Virus record (IMG/VR): IMGVR_UViG_3300006990_000045
Coordinates: 1 to 49,574 of that record
Direction: 5' to 3' (one strand)
Source of the DNA: a virus
DNA: 49,574 bases
Shown here one piece after another: positions 3,746 through 48,166 of this stretch. The notes under the pieces were generated by a model, which was not told where the DNA came from, made no database searches, and worked only from the letters and a program-made list of their open reading frames with translations. The translations under genes and the position numbers were made by a program. How positions within the stretch are numbered: position 1 is the first letter of the stretch; each line of letters opens with the position of its first letter.

Positions 3746-4672
3746 ATGGCTAAAGAACAGAAAAAGAGTATCTTAGATAAATACCCTAGTGTTAAGAACA
3801 GAGAGGTAGAAAACGTTAAACGTTTTAGTTCCCAAAGTATTTCTATTGATAAAGCACTCGGTGGGGGATACCCTAGAGGTAGGGTTATAGAAGTTTACGG
3901 ACCTGAAAGTTCAGGTAAGACAACTATCTGTTTACATGCCATTGCAGAACTTAACAGAAAAAAAGAACGGGTTGCTTATGTGGATACTGAACACTCGTAT
4001 GAGCCAATCTATGCTGAGAGCATAGGGGTGGTTCCTGAGCTATTCCACCTTGTACAGCCAGACTCTGCTGAAGAGGCACTACAGACTATGGTTGCTATGG
4101 CAGAAAGTGGGGAGTTTAGTGCTATTGTTTTGGACTCTGTTGCTGCTCTTGTCCCCTCCGCAGAATTAAATGGGGAGGTTGGAGACTCCACTATTGGACT
4201 TGTTGCTAGACTTATGAACCAAACCCTTCGGAAGATTACAGGACCAGCATCTAAGACAGGGACTACTCTCTTTTTTATCAATCAGTTACGAGACAGGGTT
4301 GGTGTTATGTACGGAAGTCCTGAGACTACTACGGGAGGAAAGGGGTTGAAATTTTATGCTTCTATTCGTCTTGATGTTCGTAGGCAAATAGACAAAGACA
4401 AACCAACAGACAACGTAAGGGTAAAGGTAGTAAAGAACAAGGTTGCTCCTCCTTTTGAGTTGGCAGAGTTTAAGGTTCGTTATGGCGTTGGCATTGATAG
4501 GGTTAACGAAATACTTAACGAGTGTGTACTTTCTGGGGTAATTCAAAAAAATGGAAGTTGGTTTTCTTATGGGGAGACTAAGTTAGGTCAGGGAGAAGAA
4601 TCTGTTTCAGAGTTACTTCGAGATAACCATGAGTTATTTGAGGAACTGAAAGCTAACCTTACATCAGATTAG
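3746..4672 (+). CDS. recA: RecA recombinase
   Basis: 308 residues, shorter than cellular RecA (about 350) at both ends. Walker A is GPESSGKTT (52-60). The catalytic glutamate lies in VDTEH (Glu82), and Walker B is AIVLD ending at Asp130. The L2 region NQLRDRVGVMYGSPETTTGG, starting at 179, is nearly the cellular sequence. RecA forms ATP-dependent filaments on single-stranded DNA and drives strand exchange, which in a phage supports recombination-dependent replication and repair. The acidic C-terminal tail of bacterial RecA is reduced to a short charged end (LRDNHELFEELKANL). The gene follows the structured leader at 3.2-3.7 kb. Confidence 0.95.
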   Translation: MAKEQKKSILDKYPSVKNREVENVKRFSSQSISIDKALGGGYPRGRVIEVYGPESSGKTTICLHAIAELNRKKERVAYVDTEHSYEPIYAESIGVVPELFHLVQPDSAEEALQTMVAMAESGEFSAIVLDSVAALVPSAELNGEVGDSTIGLVARLMNQTLRKITGPASKTGTTLFFINQLRDRVGVMYGSPETTTGGKGLKFYASIRLDVRRQIDKDKPTDNVRVKVVKNKVAPPFELAEFKVRYGVGIDRVNEILNECVLSGVIQKNGSWFSYGETKLGQGEESVSELLRDNHELFEELKANLTSD

Positions 4673-4717: not shown

Positions 4718-4969
4718 ATGAATATTCCAAGGGATTCTTACATCCAAAGTGTAATTTACACAACCCACGACAACGACTTCAAGTGGAGGCTCGGGCAAGA
4801 GGTCGGTAAACTCATCATAACAGAGATTAAGATTGACGAAGCAAGGGCATACCACGATGGTATCTACCGAGTTATTGTTATGGCTAGTTTTGATGGCGGG
4901 GCTGAGTATCAATGGAAAGATTACCCTTATGGACAAAATACAGCACTAGAATGGGCAGTTGGAGAATAA
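4718..4969 (+). CDS. hypothetical protein
   Basis: 83 residues beginning MNIPRDSYIQSVIYTTHDND. Alternating hydrophobic residues suggest a small beta domain; no motif is recognised. It is the first gene after a TTACA-type promoter, and its end overlaps the next gene by 19 bases. Confidence 0.7.
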   Translation: MNIPRDSYIQSVIYTTHDNDFKWRLGQEVGKLIITEIKIDEARAYHDGIYRVIVMASFDGGAEYQWKDYPYGQNTALEWAVGE

Positions 4970-5207: not shown

Positions 5208-6047
5208 ATGAAAGGAATCGGAAGATATGTAATAAAATTACCTCAAGACTTTGACCTTAAGAACTACGAGGATAAGGTGGGTGAGAACACCATCTATAAA
5301 GCCGCTCAGTTCGGGGCGGATACAGAACATCTTATTCAGCACACAGAGCTTGCTGCCGTTCCAGACTCAGAGAAGTTTCTTAAACCAAGTGATGTAGTGT
5401 ATATGACTCACGGGTTCTTTGATAGGTTGTATCAGTTTAAGACAAAAGAAAACTTTTTTGCTTCTATTGTAGAGGATGAATGGAACGGGGATAATCGTAA
5501 AGATATAGATAGTAGAGTTATGTTTCCGTTGGCTCTTTTCGTTCTTCGCGGAAAAAAAACAAAGGCACTTTACGAAAACAACATTTGTGATATAGTGTAC
5601 AGGGACGGAGACCCTCTTTCTCCTAACAGAAAACCTTTTGCACAAAGGGCAAAGGTGACAGACTCCCGCACACACAAAAAGAAAACGACTATTCTGTTTC
5701 TTAAAGACTCAGACTATCACATCAATCTTGGGGTGGTTGAACTTCTTTGTATTCCTGAGCGATGGGTATTTGGAACCTTTGAAGATGGTAAGGTAAATCT
5801 AAAGGAAGGATGGAACTCTGTCCGCGCTATCGACGGAGAGGAATGGAAAAAACACAGGTCTGGATACTTCGTTCAAGCTAAAGACTTGCAAGATAAGGGT
5901 ATCGGGGAGGTTGTGGATGGAGAGTTTGCAGGAAAAACAGTGCTATTCAAAAAGAAGTACAAGCTAGAAGAAACAGACAACGAAGAATTATTCGTTTGTA
6001 AGGACACTCAAATTTATTGCACATTAGATAAGTATGAAGGAGTATGA
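5208..6047 (+). CDS. putative tandem GroES-like cochaperonin
   Basis: 279 residues, ATG 2 bases after the previous stop. The N-terminus reads GIGRYVIKLP, like the first strand of GroES or T4 gp31. A polar segment follows (GENTIYKAAQFG, possible mobile loop), then HTELAAVPDSEKFLKPSDVV, which resembles the GroES core ending in the GD-x-V strand. The last 60 residues look GroES-like again: SGYFVQ as the GGI-x-L position, then GIGEVVDGEFAGKTVLF and DNEELFVCKDTQIYCTL, close to the GroES ending (D-N/G-E-E-x-L-I-x-x-x-x-D-I-L-A-I). Two GroES folds in one chain would recall chloroplast Cpn20. The partner would be the GroEL at 11,270. This is pattern matching by eye; the middle region (about 75-215) is not explained, so an unrelated beta protein remains possible. 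Confidence 0.45.
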   Translation: MKGIGRYVIKLPQDFDLKNYEDKVGENTIYKAAQFGADTEHLIQHTELAAVPDSEKFLKPSDVVYMTHGFFDRLYQFKTKENFFASIVEDEWNGDNRKDIDSRVMFPLALFVLRGKKTKALYENNICDIVYRDGDPLSPNRKPFAQRAKVTDSRTHKKKTTILFLKDSDYHINLGVVELLCIPERWVFGTFEDGKVNLKEGWNSVRAIDGEEWKKHRSGYFVQAKDLQDKGIGEVVDGEFAGKTVLFKKKYKLEETDNEELFVCKDTQIYCTLDKYEGV

Positions 6048-6375
6048 AAAAAAGTCCAAGGAAGAACTCCTTGAGATTCTGTACAAGCTAGGCGCATCTT
6101 CAACAAAGGTAAAGGCATTCGAGTCTTACAAAAGACAGATAGATAAAATGATTGACCTATTGGAAGACCTAGATATAGCAACGGCAGATAGTCTTTCGGA
6201 TAGTTCAGAGAAAACTTGGGACAGGGGAAGAGTCTTGTTTGAGAAACTACCATCTTACATCAAAGACCTAGACGAGATGGAGGCTTCTATAACAGAGGTA
6301 AGGTCTAAGTATTCCAAGCAAGCCGTAGAGGGAACAGCAGAATCCTTCTTTAAGAAGTACGGCGAAAAAAAGTAA
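6034..6375 (+). CDS. small helical protein; possible terminase small subunit
   Basis: 113 residues, almost entirely helical and charged (MKEYEKKSKEELLEILYKLG to SFFKKYGEKK). The ATG lies inside the end of the upstream gene (14-base overlap), and the large terminase gene starts 9 bases after its stop. Small terminase subunits are usually helical oligomers encoded just upstream of TerL, so that role is plausible. No helix-turn-helix is clear, so the assignment rests on position. Confidence 0.6.
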   Translation: MKEYEKKSKEELLEILYKLGASSTKVKAFESYKRQIDKMIDLLEDLDIATADSLSDSSEKTWDRGRVLFEKLPSYIKDLDEMEASITEVRSKYSKQAVEGTAESFFKKYGEKK

Positions 6376-6384
6376 CAACATTGA

Positions 6385-8451
6385 ATGGCCTCATCTTCAG
6401 GACGCATAACACTTTCGAGTCTTTATAAAAAGGCTTACGATAACTTTGAAGAAGAAAGAGAGCTTCGGGATATAAATATAAAGCTTCCTGAGAAACCCCC
6501 TATAAAAGAAATCTCTAATTACCTAGAGCCATCCGACAAGAAAAGAAAGTTTCCTTACGTAAATCTACCCGACGAACCCTCCGATGAAATAATGGAAAGG
6601 GAGTGGAAACGCCGTCGAGAAGGGTTGTGGTTCTTCAATGGAAAAAAGGATAACATTCAATTAGAGTACGTTACTGGGTATCACTATATGTTGCTTCAGT
6701 ATTTTCCTGTTCTTCTTCCAAGCGGAAACATGGGTAACGCTTTTTTTGTAGATGCACACAGGGATGCGTACTACGTCTGGCAAGAGGTGGAGAGGTCTAG
6801 GACGGTAGCGGGATTAATGCTGTTCTCAGGTCGGCGATTTTCAAAGACCACAATGGCAACGAACATAGGGTATTGGAAGACGACGGATGGAAAGAACAGA
6901 AAGTTCGGTATTCAGTCTATGACGTTTGAAGATGCTAAGAAGACTGTCTTTCAAGATATACTCATAGCCTCTTGGAAGGAGATGCACCACATTTGGAAAC
7001 CCGCAGATACAGGTAACGCAAACCCAACAGAAAGCTTAGTCTTTCAAGCACCGCGTAAGGTAACAAATAACAATAAGATAAGTGCTTACTACTTAGGTGG
7101 TACTATCGAAACATTCACGGCAAAGACAAACGCTATGGATGGTAAAGCCTTCACCTATGTCTACCACGATGAGATTGGAAAGGCAGAGACGGGCGTAGAC
7201 CCTGAAGAAAGGTACAACGTTGTAAAGCCTACTATGTTTGTTGGACCTCAAAGACGGGGTACTTGTATGCTCACTACTACGGTGGATGATATGGATAAGG
7301 GCGCAGCACAAGGAACTAAAAGACTTTGGGATGGCTCAGACCCTAAGAAAATCTCGGAAAAAACAGGGACTACACAAACTGGACTTATAAGATACTTCAA
7401 CCCAGCAGACTACGGATACATTGGTTCACACCCAATAACAGATGTACCTTTTGTAGATGAGTACGGTTATTCTAACAGAGAGGCGGCGCGAGAGTTTATC
7501 GAAGACCAACGCTCAGAGCTTTCAGGAGTACAACTTATTTCTTTTAAGCGTAAGTATCCCCTTAACGAAAAAGAGATATTCCTTAGTGATGCGGAGGCTA
7601 GTTCTTTCGATACTGCAAGTATTGTGGAGCAAATGGATTACAATGAGGGTGGTGCTAAAGACATCATTCGTAGAGTTACTTTCTTCCGTGATGCGGGTAG
7701 TGGTGGTACTGGCGCTGTTCGGTGGAGGGAAGATGAGAACGGCCCTTGGTTTATCCGCGATTTTCCCGCCCCAGAAGACCAAAACAAGAACAGACCTATG
7801 CAAGAGGATAGGACTCAATTAGAGCCTACTAGAGGGTACTTTAAGATGGGTGTTGACCCTTTCGGTTCATCTGAGGTTCGAGACAAGCGTAGGGCTTCCA
7901 AGGGTGCAGGGTTAATACTTGACATCAACCACAGATGGGTGGCTATGTACCACGCTAGACCCCCGAAGATTGAAATATTTGCAGCACAGATAATCTTAGC
8001 CGCTCAATTTTATAGTTGTGAGTGTTTGGTGGAGGATAACAAAGACTTCCTTGTGGGTGAGTTTCGTCGCCGCGGGTTTCTAGGGTATCTAATGTATAAC
8101 CCATTAGAAAGGGATAAAAAGAAAAAGTTTAAGAAAAGGGGTATTGCCACTACTTTAGATAAGAAGCCTGAGATGGTTCAGGTGCTTGCAAGTGAAATTT
8201 ACGACCACATAGGCTACAATGAGGAAACAGAAGAGTACGGAGATTGTGCGTTTCAAGCCCTTCTTCAGGAGTGGCTAGACTTCGAGGCTGCTAATTGGAC
8301 TCCTTATGACCTTACTGTTGCTGCTATGCTTGCTGTCGCTGCTTGGAAAGACCAACGGATAGACCCGCTATCGGAGGTTCAAAGCATCGGGCTTGGGAAA
8401 ATAAGAAAATTTTCTACAAAAGGTAACGGAGTTACGAGAAGAATTAAGTAA
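6385..8451 (+). CDS. terL: terminase large subunit
   Basis: 688 residues. The ATPase domain has a Walker A-like loop FSGRRFSKTT (about 147-156) and Walker B FTYVYHDE with the Asp-Glu pair near 262-263. A TTTVDD stretch may serve as the coupling motif III. The C-terminal RNase H-like nuclease domain shows MGVDPFG (near 488-494), LVEDNKDF (near 548) and DLTVAAMLA near the end, supplying the usual three acidic metal ligands. The protein packages DNA into the prohead by ATP hydrolysis and cuts concatemers. It lies upstream of portal, scaffold and capsid, with an unusual 5.5-kb insertion containing GroEL between terL and the portal. Confidence 0.92.
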   Translation: MASSSGRITLSSLYKKAYDNFEEERELRDINIKLPEKPPIKEISNYLEPSDKKRKFPYVNLPDEPSDEIMEREWKRRREGLWFFNGKKDNIQLEYVTGYHYMLLQYFPVLLPSGNMGNAFFVDAHRDAYYVWQEVERSRTVAGLMLFSGRRFSKTTMATNIGYWKTTDGKNRKFGIQSMTFEDAKKTVFQDILIASWKEMHHIWKPADTGNANPTESLVFQAPRKVTNNNKISAYYLGGTIETFTAKTNAMDGKAFTYVYHDEIGKAETGVDPEERYNVVKPTMFVGPQRRGTCMLTTTVDDMDKGAAQGTKRLWDGSDPKKISEKTGTTQTGLIRYFNPADYGYIGSHPITDVPFVDEYGYSNREAAREFIEDQRSELSGVQLISFKRKYPLNEKEIFLSDAEASSFDTASIVEQMDYNEGGAKDIIRRVTFFRDAGSGGTGAVRWREDENGPWFIRDFPAPEDQNKNRPMQEDRTQLEPTRGYFKMGVDPFGSSEVRDKRRASKGAGLILDINHRWVAMYHARPPKIEIFAAQIILAAQFYSCECLVEDNKDFLVGEFRRRGFLGYLMYNPLERDKKKKFKKRGIATTLDKKPEMVQVLASEIYDHIGYNEETEEYGDCAFQALLQEWLDFEAANWTPYDLTVAAMLAVAAWKDQRIDPLSEVQSIGLGKIRKFSTKGNGVTRRIK

Positions 8452-8460
8452 GTTTGTTTT

Positions 8461-8778
8461 ATGAATGATGTATTAGCTAAACAAAAGTTAGAAGACCAGA
8501 TTATAACTGTTTCTCTTCTGTGCGCTCACTTCGAGGCGTGTGATAACATATTGCTAAACAGCAATTCCTTGTTTACATTCAAGGCTAAGTCGCACGTTAA
8601 CTTAATCCGCAAGAAGGTAAAGCACCTCATCAAAGACATTGAGAAAAGGCTGTCAGAAGAGCAAGTGGAAGAGTTAGATATGCTTTGTGATTACTACGAG
8701 CAAGTTCTAAACCAAGCAGATAAAATGTTAGCTACTCAGATACACGAACTTCAAAATGCTAATAAGCCAAAGGATTAA
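8461..8778 (+). CDS. hypothetical helical protein
   Basis: 105 residues, helical, with a charged middle (KSHVNLIRKKVKHLIKDIEK) and a leucine-rich C-terminal half. No domain is recognised. The start follows the terminase stop by 9 bases, and the end overlaps the next gene by 23 bases. Confidence 0.65.
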   Translation: MNDVLAKQKLEDQIITVSLLCAHFEACDNILLNSNSLFTFKAKSHVNLIRKKVKHLIKDIEKRLSEEQVEELDMLCDYYEQVLNQADKMLATQIHELQNANKPKD

Positions 8779-9184
8779 AAGTTTGCGACAAGGAAAGGAA
8801 GATTGGTTAAGGTTCAAAGAAACCATCAACGAATCAGACCTTTCTAAGATAAGCCTTAGATGGTTGAAGTCTACGGCAGACTCTTACGCTGACCACGGCA
8901 CAAAAGAAGAAAGATTAGGAGGGCTTATAATCAGTATGTTCTCAACTTGTTTTAAGATAGCAGACTCAGGTAACGGAGGAGAACTTTACGATGGGGTTAT
9001 GAACCTTTCTTCTCACGATGATACAATGGGTAATCTGTTGTACAGGGTTCGCCGCGAACTACCAAAGAATCTCCACGACTTATGGGATGAAGTACTAACA
9101 CGAACAGAAGAACAAAGTCCAACAATACAAAAGAAACTAAAACACACCCCTTGTTTAATGGATGAAACATTCTACGGAAAATGA
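8756..9184 (+). CDS. paralogous family member 1, unknown function
   Basis: 142 residues. Residues 33-61 contain SLRWLKSTADSYADHGT-x-x-ER-x-x-GLIIS, which closely matches the protein at 10,292-10,852 (SLRWLISISDSYLTHGT-x-x-ER). A later LYDGVMN matches LYDGMIS of the same protein. A third, more diverged copy is at 9,738-10,292. The protein is helical and has no known catalytic motif. The start is inside the upstream gene, and the end overlaps the methyltransferase start by four bases (ATGA). Confidence 0.7.
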   Translation: MLISQRIKSLRQGKEDWLRFKETINESDLSKISLRWLKSTADSYADHGTKEERLGGLIISMFSTCFKIADSGNGGELYDGVMNLSSHDDTMGNLLYRVRRELPKNLHDLWDEVLTRTEEQSPTIQKKLKHTPCLMDETFYGK

Positions 9185-9741
9185 ATACAATAAGTAAAGA
9201 TTACAAGAAACTTCTTACAGAACATCACAAAGAAAAAGAAGGTTGGGGAACTAGCGGTGTGGTTCACTTAAAAAAGGTGTTGGACTTAATTCACTCCACA
9301 AGTTCTAAGTCTGTTCTTGATTATGGTTGCGGTAAGGGAACTTTGGGTGATAGGGTAAAAGATAAGTTAACAGAAATTGATTGGCTTGACTACGACCCAG
9401 CGATAAAGGGGAAAAAGAAAAAAAGGAAAAGCGACTTAGTGGTTTGCACTGATGTCATGGAACACGTAGAGGAAGAGTTTGTTGATGCTGTTCTTTCAGA
9501 TATTAGCGAGTTGTCTAACGTTGCTTATGTTCATATTGCTTGTGGCGCAGCAGGAGAAATACTTGCGGATGGAAGAAATGCCCACATAACACAGCGTTCA
9601 ATAGAGTGGTGGCAAGATAAGATAGAGCATAACATGGAGGGGGTTAAAAAGTACTTTCCAGAAAAACACAGACCTCGCGGAGGAATGAGTGGTAGAAGAA
9701 GTGGCGGAGATATTGCTTTAACCGCAATCGTAACTAAGTGA
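9181..9741 (+). CDS. class I SAM-dependent methyltransferase
   Basis: 186 residues. Motif I is VLDYGCGKGTLG (45-56), the S-adenosylmethionine loop. A second acidic site is WLDYDP (69-73), and VVCTDVMEHVEE (87-98) is the motif common in small-molecule and protein methyltransferases of the UbiE/Methyltransf_11 type. No DPPY or Cys-Pro catalytic motif of DNA methylases is seen, so the substrate cannot be told. It is inserted between members of a paralogous family, with four-base overlaps on both sides, so it is translated with them. Confidence 0.8.
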   Translation: MNTISKDYKKLLTEHHKEKEGWGTSGVVHLKKVLDLIHSTSSKSVLDYGCGKGTLGDRVKDKLTEIDWLDYDPAIKGKKKKRKSDLVVCTDVMEHVEEEFVDAVLSDISELSNVAYVHIACGAAGEILADGRNAHITQRSIEWWQDKIEHNMEGVKKYFPEKHRPRGGMSGRRSGGDIALTAIVTK

Positions 9742-10292
9742 ACCCAAACGATAAAGTATTTTGGAAGAAGTTGATAGCCCTTCGGCAGCGTAACATAAGC
9801 TACCGAGAACTTATTGATTACGTCAGTAAGAAAGGTATAAAGCACTTATCCTTTCGTGAGCTTATCAGTTTGAATGATTCGATAGCTGATAACGACCCAG
9901 ACTTAGCAACTCGAGCAGTAGCTCAGGTTATAACTACTTTATTCAATAAGATTAGGCTTTGCGATACTTTAATGAAAGCGGAGAATTTCCCGCAAAAAGA
10001 AGTGATTCTAAAGATAGGAGTCCAACAGCTCTACGGAAAAGCAGAAACCTACGGACTAAGATTCGGAAACACCTTCACCAACCAAACTTGGAGAATACAT
10101 AAGTTAGTAGATGAATTGGAAAACGACCTAGTTACAATAATATGGAAGGATGTACTAAGTAGATTAGAGTCCTTAAGCCCATTTATGAAGCTGTGGGAGG
10201 AGATAAGGAACCACGACCCTGAGATGTCCAACGGAAGTATTTGGAGGACTACACAGCCTTATAACGGACGGATGATAAACTTTAAAAGGTAG
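9738..10292 (+). CDS. paralogous family member 2, unknown function
   Basis: 184 residues from a GTG at 9738 that overlaps the methyltransferase stop (GTGA). Residues 36-50 (HLSFRELISLNDSIAD) align with SLRW-x-x-S-x-x-DSY of the two neighbouring paralogs, and LYGK follows at a comparable distance. The C-terminal half has WKDVLSRLESLSPF and KLWEEIRN, similar to the DLWDEVLTRTEEQSP of member 1. Divergence is high. Function unknown. Confidence 0.65.
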   Translation: MNPNDKVFWKKLIALRQRNISYRELIDYVSKKGIKHLSFRELISLNDSIADNDPDLATRAVAQVITTLFNKIRLCDTLMKAENFPQKEVILKIGVQQLYGKAETYGLRFGNTFTNQTWRIHKLVDELENDLVTIIWKDVLSRLESLSPFMKLWEEIRNHDPEMSNGSIWRTTQPYNGRMINFKR

Positions 10293-10852
10293 TGCAAAGA
10301 CCCCCAAGGTATAAACAAGTGCAGATGCCATCCAACCCAGATATAAAAACTAGGGTGGAAGTGATGTCTAAGAACTTGCGGCGGGGCTTCCAAGACTTCA
10401 AGGAGTTTCAACAATTAGTAGAGGTGGTTGAACTTAAAGAACTATCCCTTAGGTGGTTAATAAGTATTAGCGATTCTTATCTAACGCACGGAACAGAAAA
10501 AGAACGTGCTATATCGGGAATTATCTCTACATTTGCAACCATAGGAGCAAGAACCCTAGACACAGTGACTCTAAACCAACCACTAGAAAACCTACAAGAA
10601 AACCACCAAAATCTCTACGATGGGATGATAAGCGTGAACCTTAATTCTTGCGATACCTACCAAAATTACTTTGAAAGAATAGATTCGGTTATTAGGCTAG
10701 AACCTTTTCTTTACAAACTTTGGCGGGAGATAAAAGGGCGCATACAGCGCAACAGCAAAGTATTTAAAAAGCTAGACGAACTACACGAAAGAGGAATCTA
10801 CAAACTTCCTATTTACAGTCAATGGAAAGGTAAGCACTATGAGCAACTATAA
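10292..10852 (+). CDS. paralogous family member 3, unknown function
   Basis: 186 residues if the GTG at 10292 (overlapping the previous TAG by one base) is used; the ATG at 10328 gives 174. The conserved core is ELSLRWLISISDSYLTHGTE with ER and GIIS following, and later LYDGMIS and LYKLWREIKGRIQRN. The pattern is shared with 8,756-9,184 and, weakly, 9,738-10,292. The C-terminus is basic and aromatic (YSQWKGKHYEQL). No enzyme motif is seen. Confidence 0.65.
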   Translation: MQRPPRYKQVQMPSNPDIKTRVEVMSKNLRRGFQDFKEFQQLVEVVELKELSLRWLISISDSYLTHGTEKERAISGIISTFATIGARTLDTVTLNQPLENLQENHQNLYDGMISVNLNSCDTYQNYFERIDSVIRLEPFLYKLWREIKGRIQRNSKVFKKLDELHERGIYKLPIYSQWKGKHYEQL

Positions 10853-10866
10853 CTTTTTGTATTGGG

Positions 10867-11277
10867 ATGAAACGAACTCCACTGAAGAGAAAGACAAGGT
10901 TGAAATGCCAAAGCAATCTGAAGAGGACAGGGTTAAAAAAGGTATCCCAAGCAAGGGCAAAAAGGGAACGGGCGAAACACAAGGCTTATGAAGAAATCGA
11001 CAAGAAGTGGGATGGAAAATGCAAGGGGTGTGGTGAGTCTTCATGGACGGCAGGTCCAATACATCACTCTCACCTCATTCCCGAGAGTGTTCGAGCAGAC
11101 CTTGCGGCAAATGAAGAGAATCTCACCTTTCATTGTATCCCGTGCCATTTAAAATGGGAGGTAAATTCTCCAAAGGCGTCAGAGATGTTAGACTACCGAG
11201 AGAACCTTGGACGTCTTAGAGAATTAGATTGGGATTATTATTTAAAATTTAAAGAAAAGCATAACAGGAATGAGTAG
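10867..11277 (+). CDS. HNH endonuclease-like protein (NinG-like start)
   Basis: 136 residues. The very basic N-terminus (MKRTPLKRKTRLK) is typical of phage NinG and related zinc-binding proteins. Then come C-K-G-C (52-55), IHHSHLIPE (65-73), Asn85 and FHCIPCH (88-94). Two CxxC pairs and the HH/N/H residues define a zinc-stabilised beta-beta-alpha metal nuclease. Such proteins cut or nick DNA during packaging, recombination or as homing enzymes. It stands immediately before GroEL and overlaps that gene by 8 bases. Confidence 0.8.
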   Translation: MKRTPLKRKTRLKCQSNLKRTGLKKVSQARAKRERAKHKAYEEIDKKWDGKCKGCGESSWTAGPIHHSHLIPESVRADLAANEENLTFHCIPCHLKWEVNSPKASEMLDYRENLGRLRELDWDYYLKFKEKHNRNE

Positions 11278-12895
11278 AGAAGTGGATAAGAACGCAAAGG
11301 AAACAATGCTTATTGGTGTTAACATGGTGGCTGACCCAGTTGCATCAACTCTAGGCGCACAAGGTAAGCTAGTAACTATCAGCACTAAAGACCAAACCGT
11401 TCCTGACGGACAAGGTGGGTACAAGATAGTCAGAGGAAAGGCTATAACAACCAAAGATGGTGTTACGGTAGCTAAGGCAGTAACAAGCGACGAGCCTAGA
11501 ACAGAGGCGGGGATACGCATGATTAAGGAGGTCGCAGAGAAGACTGTTGAAGAGGTAGGAGACGGGACGAGCGGTAGTACCATCCTAGCAAGGTACATGA
11601 TGAACGAAGGTGTTAAAGCTATTAACGAAGGTGTAAATCACGTAGACTATTGTAACGGAATACAACAGGCTGTAATAGCAGTAACAGAAAAAGTAAAAGA
11701 ACTTGCTAAACCTGTAGACTCCCAAGAACTTGCCACTAAGATTGCTACTATTTCCGCAAATAATGATGCAGAGTTAGGGGGTCTCATTGGAGAGGTGTTC
11801 GGTCAAATAGGTCTAAACGGCGCGGTTAGCATCGAGGAAGGAACAGAGTTTGAAACTACGTTCGACGTAGTAAAGGGTATGGCTATCTCTAGCGGGTACA
11901 TAACTCACCACTTTATAAATACTTACAAAGGAGAGTGCGTTCTTGAGAATCCTATCATCGTGCTATTCTCGGGAGAGGTAAACACGGTAAACGAAATTAC
12001 CAACGTCTTAGGTAAGGCTATGCAAGCCAAAAGACCTCTTCTTTTAATCGCAGACATTCAAAACGAAGCACTAGAAACAGTTATCGTGAACAGGGAGCGC
12101 GGAGCGTTAGATGTTTGTATTGTTAAGCCACCATCAATGGGAAGCACAAGAGATGACCTCATGCGAGACATTTCTGCTGTTACTGGGGTAGAGTACATTA
12201 CCAAAGCCCAAGGTCGTAAGTTCAGCGAGATTGAGCCAAACCTAAGCGGGGGTGCTTCTAAAGTTATCGTGTCTAAGAACGATACTAAGATTGTAGGTGG
12301 TTTCGGAACAGAGGAACAAATCGCACAAAGAAAAGAGGAACTGGAAGAAAACCTTAAGCAAGCAAAGAATAAGAAGTGGTTGAAAAGCCGTATCTCAATG
12401 CTTGAGGGTGGTGTGGCTAGAATCATCGTAGGGGGAAAAACAACCTCAGACATGAAAGAAAGATACGACAGGGTAGAAGATGCTGTGTTGGCTACTCAGT
12501 CTGCGGCTGAAGAAGGATATGTAGCAGGAGGAGGAAGTACGTTCAGACATATTGCCCTAAACGAGAAGAAAGCGTTTAACGCAAGTGGCTATAACCCCGA
12601 CTTCATTAAAGGGTATAACTTAGTACTAGAGGCTTGCATTGAACCTGAGAACACTATTCTTAAGAACGCAGGGCAGGTGCATGAGGAAACCTTTTTAGAT
12701 AGGTTATTCCCGCCGAAGCAAACGGAACAGCAAGAATACGGGTATGGTTTTGATGCAAAGGAATACGAAACAAAAGTAGACTTAATTGCGCGAGGAATCA
12801 TAGACCCTGCAAAAGTATTAGACAGATGCTTAAGAAACGCATCTACAAATGCAATTACACTGCTCAAGACAGATTTCTTGATATTTGACAAGTAA
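11270..12895 (+). CDS. groEL: GroEL-type chaperonin, phage-encoded
   Basis: 541 residues, full-length compared with E. coli GroEL (548). The ATPase aspartates are kept: TKDGVTVA (Asp63, equal to Asp52), GDGTSGSTIL (Asp98, equal to Asp87) and RVEDAVLATQ (Asp404, equal to Asp398), followed by EEGYVAGGG. The C-terminal IIDPAKVLDRCLRNA matches the equatorial domain end. Differences include LGAQGK for the usual LGPKGR nucleotide loop, GYITHHF in the apical substrate groove (His for Tyr203, Phe204 kept), and no Gly-Gly-Met tail. The protein should form a folding cage, most simply for capsid or other virion proteins. Chaperonins are known in a few phages but are rare. The gene overlaps HNH and is followed by an exonuclease; its cochaperonin may be the protein at 5,208. 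Confidence 0.95.
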   Translation: MSREVDKNAKETMLIGVNMVADPVASTLGAQGKLVTISTKDQTVPDGQGGYKIVRGKAITTKDGVTVAKAVTSDEPRTEAGIRMIKEVAEKTVEEVGDGTSGSTILARYMMNEGVKAINEGVNHVDYCNGIQQAVIAVTEKVKELAKPVDSQELATKIATISANNDAELGGLIGEVFGQIGLNGAVSIEEGTEFETTFDVVKGMAISSGYITHHFINTYKGECVLENPIIVLFSGEVNTVNEITNVLGKAMQAKRPLLLIADIQNEALETVIVNRERGALDVCIVKPPSMGSTRDDLMRDISAVTGVEYITKAQGRKFSEIEPNLSGGASKVIVSKNDTKIVGGFGTEEQIAQRKEELEENLKQAKNKKWLKSRISMLEGGVARIIVGGKTTSDMKERYDRVEDAVLATQSAAEEGYVAGGGSTFRHIALNEKKAFNASGYNPDFIKGYNLVLEACIEPENTILKNAGQVHEETFLDRLFPPKQTEQQEYGYGFDAKEYETKVDLIARGIIDPAKVLDRCLRNASTNAITLLKTDFLIFDK

Positions 12896-13956: not shown

Positions 13957-16389
13957 ATGCCCAAAGGTAAAAACGACAATTCAAAAAAGAAGTTAGGAGC
14001 TTTTCCAAATCCATTAGCTAAACCATCAGAAAAAGCCAAAGAAGACTACGGTAAGGCGATGGCTTCTGCCATGTGGTCAAGAGCTAGAAGTGATGGGTGG
14101 AGTTCTTATGCTTCCACGCGCAAAAGAATCGTGGAGGCTCGGGAGTGGGTTCGCGGGACTCAAAGCATATCTAACCTTAAAGACCTTGTTAATACAGGCG
14201 GCGGTACATCATACGCTCCTTTTAACTTCAACGTTTCCAACCCAATACCAAACCTTTCCAAATCTTTCATCAACAGCGTAACTGGTCGTAACTATGATGT
14301 GGTGGCTGAAAGCCTTGACAAAACATCTAAGGGTAAGCTTGACGAGGAGATGAACAAAAAGAAGTTCAAGGTCGCTGCAAAGAAATACAAGAAAGAACTA
14401 CAGGACCTCGGGATTGATGCTGTCAACCCAATGGAGGAAGACTCTATCCCAGATACCTTTGAAGATGTAGAATTAGACTTTGAGTTAAACTACAAGACAG
14501 AGTTTGAGGAGTTTGTAGAGACGGGTATCAACTTCGTGTTTAACAACAACAACATTGAAGAGAAGAAAAGCAACATCGCAGAAGACGCTATTACCATTGG
14601 TAGGCTAGGCTTAAGAGTCGGCTTTGACCATAACCGAGACCCATTCTTACGTTGGGTGGATTGGAAGAACGTCATCCATAGTAACTGCAAGAATAAAGAC
14701 TTTAGCGATTGGTCTTACTTCGGCGAGGTGATAGAGATGTCTATAGCAGAGCTTCAGATGTCATCAGCTAACAAGTTCACAGACAAAGAGATATTTGATA
14801 TTGCAAAAAGATACGCAGGACCAGATTACGGAAACAGAATTTGGGGGTATGGCGCGTACTACGGGCAACAAGGCGGTTTTGGGTTTGACGATGTTCAAGA
14901 CTTTAAGATTCCTGTTATGGACTTTATGTTCAAGACAGTAGACGACCAAAGGTATCTTATAAAAAAGAATAACAAAGGTGGAATTTTCCGCCCGAGAAAA
15001 GTAGATGACAATTACGAGTTACCACCCAACACAACTAAGAAGCAACTTAAGAGTGTAGGCTTAGAGGTAATCTACCAAGGGTATTGGATTGTTGACTCAG
15101 AGCATATCTTCAACTATGGTTTGATGGAGAATATGGTTCGCCCGAGAAAAGACGGAATCTATAGCACTAAAGTAGTATGTCCTTACGTTGCTTACGCGGT
15201 GGATATGCTAGACTCTAAGGTGAAGTCTAAAGTAGAACAAATGATTCCCCTAGCGGAGTTTATGATGCTTATAGACCTAAAGCTACAACAGATGGTAGGA
15301 CTCACGCGCCCCACAGGGGTTGCTGTTGATGTTTGGTCTATGGCTAACCTTAAATCTGTCTCAGGAGCTGCGGGAGAAGAAATGGACTTAGGAGATGCCT
15401 TGGAGATGTACAACCAACTCGGTACGTACTTCTACGCATCCCAAAGAGAGCATGGTGGGTTTGTGAACCAAAAGCCAATCGAACAGCTAGACAACGGACT
15501 TCCAGCATCTACTATGATGATGATTGAGATGTACCGAAACGCTCAAGAAAGACTTTATCAAATAAGCGGTTTTAACCCTACGGTTGACGGAACCTCTATG
15601 GATAAGAACGCTCTTGTTGGTGTAGAGAAGATGCGTGTTGATATGCACAACAATGCCATCCGTCACCTTACCGATGCTTACACAAACGTAATTTCTCGTG
15701 CCGCTCAAGTTACTGGGTTGTTCATTCAGGATGCCCTTGAGTTTCATAAGAAGTCAGAGGGTTACGACATGGCTATTGGGTTTGAAAGGGCTTTCTCTTT
15801 GAAAGAGATGGCGGGGTACAACTACGCTGAACTTGGTATTACCATTAAGTACAAGCCTAATGACGATGAGAAGGCTTACTTCGAGCGAAACTTAGAACGG
15901 GCGATTCAGGGTAGTCAAATAGATATTAGTATTGCAACTCGCGCACGAAGAGTAGCAGACACGTCTATTAAAGCTGCAGAGAAATACTTAGAAAGAGCAG
16001 TAGAGAAGTACGCACAACAACAGCAACAATTCGCAATCGAAAGAGGTCAAGCTAACGCACAAGCACAAGCACAAGCTGCGGCAATCGCAGAGGAAGAAAG
16101 GCGTAAGACACTTCAACTAGAATATCAGCTAAAGGCTCAGAATGTTCAACTAGAGTATCAGTTGAAACAAGGAGAGTCACAACTTGACCACATTGAGGAT
16201 ATGGCTAAGATTGAACTCAAGGCTGAAAAAGATTCTGAGTTGATTGAGACAGCTGCTGATATGGATAATAAGTCAGATGACGGAAGACCTAATAAACCTA
16301 CAGACAGGGCGCAGGTAAAAGGTCGTGACGTAATGCCTAGAGTAATACCTCAACCATCAGATAACGCTATTGTAAGGGCGAAAACCTAA
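13957..16389 (+). CDS. portal protein
   Basis: 810 residues. Assigned from size, position between terminase and scaffold/capsid, and composition. The N-terminus is basic; the central part is acidic and aromatic (VDWKNVIHSNCKNKDFSDW), typical of a portal wing and clip. A helical region follows (IEMYRNAQERLYQISGFNPT), and the C-terminus is a Gln/Ala-rich coiled coil (YAQQQQQFAIERGQANAQAQ), the likely barrel or tail. NPTVDG in this region resembles portal proteins of podoviruses. A dodecameric portal is the packaging channel and neck base. The large size is comparable with portals of crAss-like and Cellulophaga podoviruses, but that link is inferred. Confidence 0.8.
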   Translation: MPKGKNDNSKKKLGAFPNPLAKPSEKAKEDYGKAMASAMWSRARSDGWSSYASTRKRIVEAREWVRGTQSISNLKDLVNTGGGTSYAPFNFNVSNPIPNLSKSFINSVTGRNYDVVAESLDKTSKGKLDEEMNKKKFKVAAKKYKKELQDLGIDAVNPMEEDSIPDTFEDVELDFELNYKTEFEEFVETGINFVFNNNNIEEKKSNIAEDAITIGRLGLRVGFDHNRDPFLRWVDWKNVIHSNCKNKDFSDWSYFGEVIEMSIAELQMSSANKFTDKEIFDIAKRYAGPDYGNRIWGYGAYYGQQGGFGFDDVQDFKIPVMDFMFKTVDDQRYLIKKNNKGGIFRPRKVDDNYELPPNTTKKQLKSVGLEVIYQGYWIVDSEHIFNYGLMENMVRPRKDGIYSTKVVCPYVAYAVDMLDSKVKSKVEQMIPLAEFMMLIDLKLQQMVGLTRPTGVAVDVWSMANLKSVSGAAGEEMDLGDALEMYNQLGTYFYASQREHGGFVNQKPIEQLDNGLPASTMMMIEMYRNAQERLYQISGFNPTVDGTSMDKNALVGVEKMRVDMHNNAIRHLTDAYTNVISRAAQVTGLFIQDALEFHKKSEGYDMAIGFERAFSLKEMAGYNYAELGITIKYKPNDDEKAYFERNLERAIQGSQIDISIATRARRVADTSIKAAEKYLERAVEKYAQQQQQFAIERGQANAQAQAQAAAIAEEERRKTLQLEYQLKAQNVQLEYQLKQGESQLDHIEDMAKIELKAEKDSELIETAADMDNKSDDGRPNKPTDRAQVKGRDVMPRVIPQPSDNAIVRAKT

Positions 16390-46375: not shown

Positions 46376-48166
46376 TTATTCAAAATCATCTGTTTTATAT
46401 TCCCACTCGTCCTCTTCTTGTTCACTATCATCCTTGTACGGGAGCCTAGCCCTGTGTTCAGCTACGCTATCCCGTGAGTCCACTTGTATGTATCCACACC
46501 TATCCTTTCTCATACTCATAATAAATGGGTCATCGTTAGGGCTTGGCTTTCCACCTGTCTCTTGGACTTTTATCTTATCAACGTGTATCTCAGTGTACAT
46601 CCATTCGGTAGGGTGTTTGCTGTTCCTGTGTACTGCTAGGAAGTCGTCAGCCTTGTTGGCTTTTAGTTGTCCTCCGTCTACGCTGCTCTTGTAGGGTCTT
46701 CTAATATATCCATCTGAGTCCTTGTCTCTTGCCGCAAATGTGTTGGCGTGGTCAGGTATCCACACAGCAGAGTAGTTCTCTTTGAACACACGTATTAGGT
46801 TCAGGCTATTTTGATTGTGTCTGTGGTTGTCTGTACCATGAGGTATGTCAAGAGAGTTGTACGGGTCTACAATCAAGCAGTCGTACTCAAAGTCTTCATC
46901 AAACAATATCTCTCCTCGCAATAGGAGTTCTTCCCAAGTGTAATTCTTTTTAGAGGTAAGGATTCTAAAGTACTTACGAACAAACTCATCGGCTTCCTTT
47001 TTCTCATCAGCGTTCATTTGCTCTAGGGTTTTACCTATGTAGAACTCCTTAAACTTCCTTGATACGTGTCCGTCTGAGTTCTCTGCCGAGTACACCGCAA
47101 ACTTCCATCCGTGGTTAATCGCAGCAAGAACAGCGATATACCAACAGATAGTAGACTTACCACTACCATCAAGACCAAGGAAGAACACAAGGTGATTCCT
47201 TTTAATAAGCCAGTACTCATCAAGACCCGTAAGACCTGTACTCAAACCCATCTCAAGTGTACCATCTACAACAGCACGTTCGTACTCATCTATCTCTTCT
47301 TGGTCGGCAAGGAAGTCAAAGGTTCCATCGTCTCTTTTGATAAACTCTTGAGCCTTTTCAATCTTCTTTGCTTCTTGGATGGGTCGAGACTTACCATACT
47401 CAATACCATCCTTGATAGCTTGTAGCGCCCCTGCTTCGTCTTTAATGTTTTTAGCTAGTATTTCATCAGTTAGCACTTGAACCGCATGAGCCTCTTCTAT
47501 ACGCCCTACAGCGATATATCCTCCTAGTAACTTCGCAGCACGTAAAAGGGTGTCATGCTTCTCACCATCAACAGAACCCCTTACCATACCAACCGCAATA
47601 GAAAGAATCTTGTTGTTTCTATGGGTCTTACGAATGTTATTATTGTTTTGCTTATCCCTTGCCTTAGAGAACCTAGAAGTCCATGTAGTACTATTCTTAT
47701 TTAGAAATATGTTAGGGTCAAAGGACTCAAAGCAAAGCCTTGCGATGTTGCGTGAGGTAGTGTCAAGTTCAGGGTATCTCCCAATAAAGGAGTCGTAGTA
47801 CTCTGAGTGAGTCTCTATATTTGCAGGGATTCTAACCAAAGCCTTTACTCCGTTACCGCTAGGGCTTATCCAAGCTGCGTAGATGTAGGGGTCTTGGGAT
47901 AGTTGAGACTTCTTAGAGATAGGGTCTACCTTATCCCAATCAAGTACCATGTACCCGCTGTGTGTTTTTACGTCTACGTCTTTTCTTGTGGGGCTTGTTA
48001 TCTCTCCCGCAAATATCACGCAAGGCAAGTCCTTTTTATCAACCCCCCCGTTTCTCACGCCTTCAACAGCGACCTTACTTCTTCCGTTTTTAATCCGCGC
48101 AAGGGCTTTATCCACGTCAATAAGGATGGGCTTCTTTGATTTCAGTGTTTCATATATTGTAACCAT
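46376..48166 (-). CDS. primase-helicase with BT4734/VirE-like N-terminal domain
   Basis: 596 residues. The N-terminal domain shows GYMVLDWDKVD (Asp76 and Asp78), SPSGNGVKALVRI (101-113) and RNIARLCFESFDP (139-151). This is the pattern of the BT4734/VirE-N group related to archaeo-eukaryotic primases, with Lys where classical primases have His. A linker follows, then a RecA-type helicase: Walker A GLDGSGKST (about 331-339), Walker B CLIVDPYNSLD (about 427-437), and VDGGQLKANKADDFLAVHRN like the DnaB motif 4 region. It probably primes and unwinds DNA at the replication fork. The AEP-like activity is inferred from motifs only. Confidence 0.8.
   Translation of the reverse strand: MVTIYETLKSKKPILIDVDKALARIKNGRSKVAVEGVRNGGVDKKDLPCVIFAGEITSPTRKDVDVKTHSGYMVLDWDKVDPISKKSQLSQDPYIYAAWISPSGNGVKALVRIPANIETHSEYYDSFIGRYPELDTTSRNIARLCFESFDPNIFLNKNSTTWTSRFSKARDKQNNNNIRKTHRNNKILSIAVGMVRGSVDGEKHDTLLRAAKLLGGYIAVGRIEEAHAVQVLTDEILAKNIKDEAGALQAIKDGIEYGKSRPIQEAKKIEKAQEFIKRDDGTFDFLADQEEIDEYERAVVDGTLEMGLSTGLTGLDEYWLIKRNHLVFFLGLDGSGKSTICWYIAVLAAINHGWKFAVYSAENSDGHVSRKFKEFYIGKTLEQMNADEKKEADEFVRKYFRILTSKKNYTWEELLLRGEILFDEDFEYDCLIVDPYNSLDIPHGTDNHRHNQNSLNLIRVFKENYSAVWIPDHANTFAARDKDSDGYIRRPYKSSVDGGQLKANKADDFLAVHRNSKHPTEWMYTEIHVDKIKVQETGGKPSPNDDPFIMSMRKDRCGYIQVDSRDSVAEHRARLPYKDDSEQEEDEWEYKTDDFE

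Follow-up and report, generated by a model that had tools for sequence, protein, structure and literature searches.

A predicted three-domain GroES-like protein encoded beside the terminase of an uncultured virus, and its probable role as a lid for GroEL

The sequence analyzed here (the window) is a 49,574-bp IMG/VR record of an uncultured virus that lacks terminal repeats, and it is probably a genome fragment. Its plus strand carries a RecA/UvsX-like recombinase (3746..4672; PF00154, E=1.1e-87; homolog in contig L287, E=6.5e-85), which forms the upstream flank of a syntenic block, followed by an 83-aa ORF (4718..4969; phmmer to L287:3076-3336, E=1.5e-4) and by a predicted 279-aa three-domain GroES-like co-chaperonin (5208..6047, stop codon at 6045-6047), recognized by an HMM of its relatives, by phmmer and by its gene slot. 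Downstream lie a 113-aa ORF (6034..6375), the terminase large subunit (TerL), which served as the synteny anchor (6385..8451; phrog_6681, E=3.4e-67; L287 homolog, E=4e-169), a 541-aa group I chaperonin, GroEL (11270..12895), and the portal protein (13957..16389; phrog_6547, E=3e-88; L287 homolog, E=3.5e-233). The portal is ~25% identical to those of Cellulophaga phages phi38:1 and phi46:3, Flavobacterium elemo phages, and Maribacter phage Panino, and because of this relatedness a Bacteroidota host is likely for the window virus.

Between TerL and GroEL, three adjacent ORFs (8756-10852; 142, 184, and 186 aa) have motifs such as ISLRWL..ADSY..HGT in common and resemble a small family of paralogs with a methyltransferase interposed; database searches gave no strong match for them. 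On the minus strand, a 596-aa protein (46376-48166) with a BT4734-like N-terminal domain (PF08800) is possibly a replication primase/helicase.

An earlier note on this DNA had placed a GroEL with all three ATPase aspartates in the interval between terminase and portal. This was borne out by matches to Pfam Cpn60_TCP1 (PF00118, E=6e-37) and to phrog_5725 GroEL (6.4e-109), and by an alignment in which the catalytic D52, D87, and D398 of Escherichia coli GroEL correspond to D63, D98, and D404. The GDGT and GGG motifs are retained, and judging from its sequence, the protein is a genuine full-length group I chaperonin. It has an insertion of ~14 residues near the equatorial stem-loop and a C terminus without a GGM tail, and the equivalents of E. 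coli A109, E434, and R452 are E, P, and N. The statement in the same note that few phages carry GroEL is dated, since 273 INPHARED records contain a GroEL-like match to the window protein. Known phage-encoded GroELs include gp146 of phage EL, that of AR9, and the flavophage GroELs; the window gene is likewise a phage chaperonin gene, and it differs from these in being accompanied by a three-domain co-chaperonin. In this phage group GroEL has already been reported, both in 36 environmental phi38:1-like genomes (PMC5332604) and, together with GroES, in Panino (PMC11590407). The new part is the putative three-domain lid.

Translation of the ORF at 5208-6047 (+) confirmed a protein of 279 aa with the N-terminal start MKGIGRYVIKLP and C-terminal end GEVVDGEFAGKTVLFKKKYKLEETDNEELFVCKDTQIYCTLDKYEGV. 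Used directly as a query, this protein gave no match in Pfam (including Cpn10), PHROG, or tblastn searches, and the phrog_13932 model did not detect it. AF2 prediction with near-identical relatives only was uninformative (pLDDT of 31). A first profile of the tandem family gave weak matches at both ends (P about 0.02, equaled by 3 of 300 shuffles). The signal became stronger once the profile was enlarged with closer, TerL-guided relatives, and a 56-member tandem profile matched residues 1-192 at P=9e-5, with a second match at 187-272. Compared by hhalign with GroES-domain profiles built without it, the window protein scored 30.4 (residues 1-74) and 27.9 (residues 199-272), above the maxima of 23.6 and 20.5 obtained from 400 shuffles. 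The GroES likeness that had been noticed at the two termini therefore exceeds chance, none of the 400 shuffles reaching the observed scores.

Relatives were located by a scan of the collection, which yielded hundreds, and by TerL-guided scans. The gene that lies one or two places ahead of TerL in phi38:1, elemo, phi19:3, and Panino carries the annotation co-chaperonin GroES (180-200 aa, phrog_13932), and for phi38:1 and phi19:3 Pfam Cpn10 matches the C-terminal half of the product. The order of a ~75-aa ORF, a tandem GroES of ~190-208 aa, a ~91-aa ORF, and TerL recurs in nearly every contig whose upstream sequence could be read. It is paralleled in the window by ORFs of 83 and 97 aa, the 279-aa protein, the 113-aa ORF, and TerL. 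The 83-aa ORF is likely the counterpart of the ORF of ~75-87 aa that precedes the multi-domain GroES in relatives. The slot between multi-domain GroES and TerL holds an ORF of ~90-135 aa in nearly all relatives, and from its position and size the 113-aa ORF possibly encodes the small terminase. With the closest long contig (L254, the same as L287), synteny spans RecA, the 83-aa ORF, the 279-aa protein, TerL, the portal, and head proteins.

The proteins encoded in this slot by the closest relatives are of similar length, namely, 259 aa in L253, 268 aa in L255, and 277 aa in L252; another long member is the L176 protein (258 aa), whose gene is cut at the contig start. The L253 protein, from a contig whose TerL is 44% identical to that of the window, matched the window protein by phmmer at E=1.2e-20 and the tandem-GroES HMM at E=1.4e-20. 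An HMM of the L252, L253, L255, and L176 proteins, from which the window protein was left out, matched residues 1-274 of the latter at E=4.9e-25. Pfam Cpn10 (PF00166) matches four of the five other family members scanned (best, 7.2e-9), the exception presumably being the 94% relative of the window protein. The profile search against GroES proposed in the earlier note thus gave no direct match, the protein alone being below the Pfam threshold, yet homology to GroES/Cpn10 was obtained through the relatives' HMM. By way of these relatives, the 279-aa protein is recognized as GroES-like.

For the tandem relative L095 (193 aa, 21-sequence alignment), AF2 gave a model with a pLDDT of 76.8, whose best PDB match was Cpn20 (7ekq_R; Foldseek E=8e-6, Z 11.6, residues 1-192), followed by single GroES chains. 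The relatives of ~190-200 aa contain exactly two GroES domains, as is characteristic of the Cpn20 type. In the window protein and in those of L252, L253, L255, and L176, three matches were found instead. Profile comparison resolved the window protein into three putative GroES-like domains on the plus strand: domain 1 (residues 1-113; 5208..5546), domain 2 (residues 114-192; 5547..5783), and domain 3 (residues 193-279; 5784..6044). Each segment has a match in its own counterpart domain of the relatives and in no other of their domains, with hhalign P-values, which refer here and below to single comparisons, of 2.4e-13 and 1.7e-6 for domains 1 and 2 against those of the four other triples and of 3.3e-4 for domain 3 against that of the other triples.

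The three domain families are in turn homologous to GroES at the sequence level. The domain-1 and domain-2 families match domains 1 and 2 of the tandem GroES (P=4.5e-19 and P=2.1e-17, respectively), and the domain-3 family (5 members) matches the GroES-domain profile (P=5.9e-10). Searched alone against the PDB, the domain-3 family has Cpn20 (E=1.6e-4) and GroES chains as its top nine matches. In the window protein, the signal of domain 3 is weaker than those of domains 1 and 2. In L252 (277 aa), GroES profiles are matched by each of the three segments (P=1.6e-13, 1.5e-11, and 2.1e-8), and the proteins of L253, L255, and L176 have the same domain order, with a weaker third domain. When the three domains of the window protein were simply compared in pairs, no similarity reached significance, so the three-domain assignment rests on profiles and not on visible internal repeats. 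The two GroES-like segments of the earlier note correspond to domains 1 and 3, with residues 114-192 forming a further putative domain 2. Its proposal of a Cpn20-like double-domain viral cochaperonin holds as regards a multi-domain GroES, given the homology, the synteny, and the model of the tandem relative, and fails as regards the number of domains, which comes out as three. By eye, GENTIYKA in domain 1 and HRSGYFVQ in domain 3 stand in the alignment where the mobile loop, with its hydrophobic GroEL-binding tripeptide, would be expected, and no clear hydrophobic tripeptide was seen in DPLSPNRK of domain 2.

The triple GroES occurs together with a single-domain GroES and GroEL in three relatives, clustered within ~4 kb in L252 and L176 and on one contig in L253. 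L254 and L255 carry the triple and the single GroES, with GroEL undetected on their 50-53 kb contigs, and L257, a shorter contig whose triple protein is that of L255, has neither single GroES nor GroEL. A single GroES is encoded by every relative with a three-domain protein and enough sequence; none was found in the 49.6-kb window, which is a probable fragment. GroEL was undetected in several contigs of 54-69 kb that carry tandem GroES and in phi19:3. The multi-domain GroES is thus kept more widely than GroEL, and the GroEL-less cases must use the host GroEL or something else. Because so many relatives have a multi-domain GroES and no detectable GroEL, we infer rather than observe the pairing of the 279-aa protein with the GroEL of the window. 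The GroELs of the window and of L253, the closest GroEL-bearing relative, are only 32.6% identical, compared with 44% for their terminases. GroEL may therefore have been acquired or replaced independently; co-inheritance of GroEL and GroES was not supported by the GroEL identity matrix.

The lack of a direct Pfam or PHROG match for the 279-aa protein and the pLDDT of 31 obtained with near-identical relatives would be compatible with an unrelated phage head or tail protein that carries GroES-like strands by chance. Such an origin is extremely improbable and is effectively refuted by the homology chain, given the match (E=4.9e-25) to the HMM built from four relatives that themselves match Cpn10, the conserved slot, and the shuffled sequences, none of which reached the observed scores. 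An architecture closer to that of Cpn20, with two GroES domains and an insertion of ~92 residues (about 83-174) in domain 1, would account for several observations. A tandem-dominated MAFFT alignment assigns residues 1-82 and 175-192 to domain 1 and residues 193-279 to domain 2, the linker DGKVNLKEGWNSVRAI of the window protein resembles the tandem linker, and segment 193-279 is similar to domain 2 of L095 (shuffle p=0.0035). This reading is, however, weakened by residues 157-189, which align to domain 2 of L176 in an ungapped 33-residue match (shuffle p=0.006) that includes the domain-2 motif of the tandem family, ..F.K..DY. Moreover, segment 114-192 matches, among the domains of the triples, domain 2 alone (P=1.7e-6), and L252 displays three separate domain matches. 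We consider an inserted two-domain protein unlikely.

A three-domain protein of GroES fold could also cap another sevenfold ring, such as ClpP, or serve in the virion or in packaging, with the fold put to a new use. The ClpP alternative arises because 7ekq, the PDB entry that the family model matches best, is a Chlamydomonas ClpP structure containing Cpn20. The multi-domain GroES gene is also linked to those of terminase and portal, and large contigs retain it where GroEL is undetected. Against these roles stand the three relatives in which a single contig encodes a triple GroES, a single GroES, and GroEL, and the precedent of T4 gp31, a phage-encoded lid that works with the host GroEL (PMC6318259). 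Overall, a function away from GroEL appears improbable.

The reading that we favor, and consider probable as a whole, is that of a three-domain GroES-like lid protein that caps a GroEL ring and is one of a group of proteins with concatenated GroES domains kept beside the terminase by flavobacterial-type podoviruses. We infer the lid function from the established knowledge of GroES, gp31, and Cpn20, and the stoichiometry, the capsid clients, and the identity of the capped GroEL are proposed in the same conditional manner. Most likely, two three-domain chains, alone or joined by one single-domain GroES of the ordinary kind (3+3 or 3+3+1), would form a near-sevenfold lid, the two chains providing six domains and the single GroES the seventh. 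This lid would close the folding chamber of GroEL, either that of the phage or that of the host, and its clients would be phage head proteins late in infection, as with T4 gp31. Cpn20 combines with Cpn10 into functional lids that contain seven GroES domains, and concatemers of six or eight domains work too (PMC5780408).

Since the relatives with a triple GroES and enough sequence also encode a single GroES, a 3+3+1 lid is arithmetically possible. Much more tentatively, two triples and one single GroES (3+3+1 = 7) might build an asymmetric hetero-oligomeric lid with specialized domains facing fixed positions of the ring, which, if true, would solve the symmetry problem in a way that is not known from cells. 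A fixed domain order would make the lid asymmetric, and it raises the questions of whether each domain needs a mobile loop and of how six or seven domains are counted. Tuning of the folding chamber by the phage for its own capsid proteins is open to test.

The lids of bacteria are formed by single-domain GroES and those of chloroplasts by two-domain proteins; two-domain GroES is an oddity of chloroplasts and apicoplasts, and its fit to a sevenfold ring has been debated. Like Cpn20 of these organelles (7ekq_R), the window protein has concatenated GroES-like domains in one chain, with a single-domain Cpn10 alongside in its relatives. It differs in having three domains instead of two, in being viral and encoded beside the terminase, and in its very low sequence similarity. 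The phrog_13932 GroES proteins of Cellulophaga, Flavobacterium elemo, and Maribacter Panino phages (~180-200 aa) occupy the same slot and have homologous domains 1 and 2, whereas the window protein has an extra C-terminal GroES domain. T4 gp31, which favors phage protein folding, has a single GroES-like domain and forms a homoheptamer. The likeness to this phage-encoded GroEL lid is one of function, by analogy only, and gp31 works with the GroEL of its host, whereas a GroEL gene is present in the window phage itself. Among the core genes listed for the Pervagoviridae is cpn10 (PMC8776804).

No three-domain GroES was found elsewhere among INPHARED phages or, with peptide patterns of limited sensitivity, among GTDB contigs. 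In the open-access literature, neither a two-domain architecture in these phage GroES proteins nor a three-domain GroES from any source was found to be described. Two- and three-domain GroES in a widespread phage family, alongside single GroES and in some cases GroEL, would represent concatenation outside plastids, and it would assign a role to a gene next to the terminase that some annotations leave as hypothetical.

Several further features of the family were observed. Gene UOF82516.1 of MW202828.1 and the gene at 49847-50425 of KC821614, both annotated as hypothetical, are tandem GroES of the phrog_13932 kind. Multi-domain GroES with GroEL undetected (54-76 kb) was recorded in NC_021789 (phi19:3) and in the IMG/VR contigs behind L185, L212, L213, L232, L238, and L243. 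In some TerL relatives (L178:461-1069, L230:1820-2536, and L247:2335-3051), an unrelated protein of 202-238 aa rich in Ser, Thr, Val, and Ala replaces GroES in the slot ahead of the small ORF. Many marine tandem GroES proteins (L096, L100, L157, and others) end in a conserved tail (..GNEEEYNPSWA..) that is missing from ordinary GroES and from the window protein and that is perhaps a docking tail.
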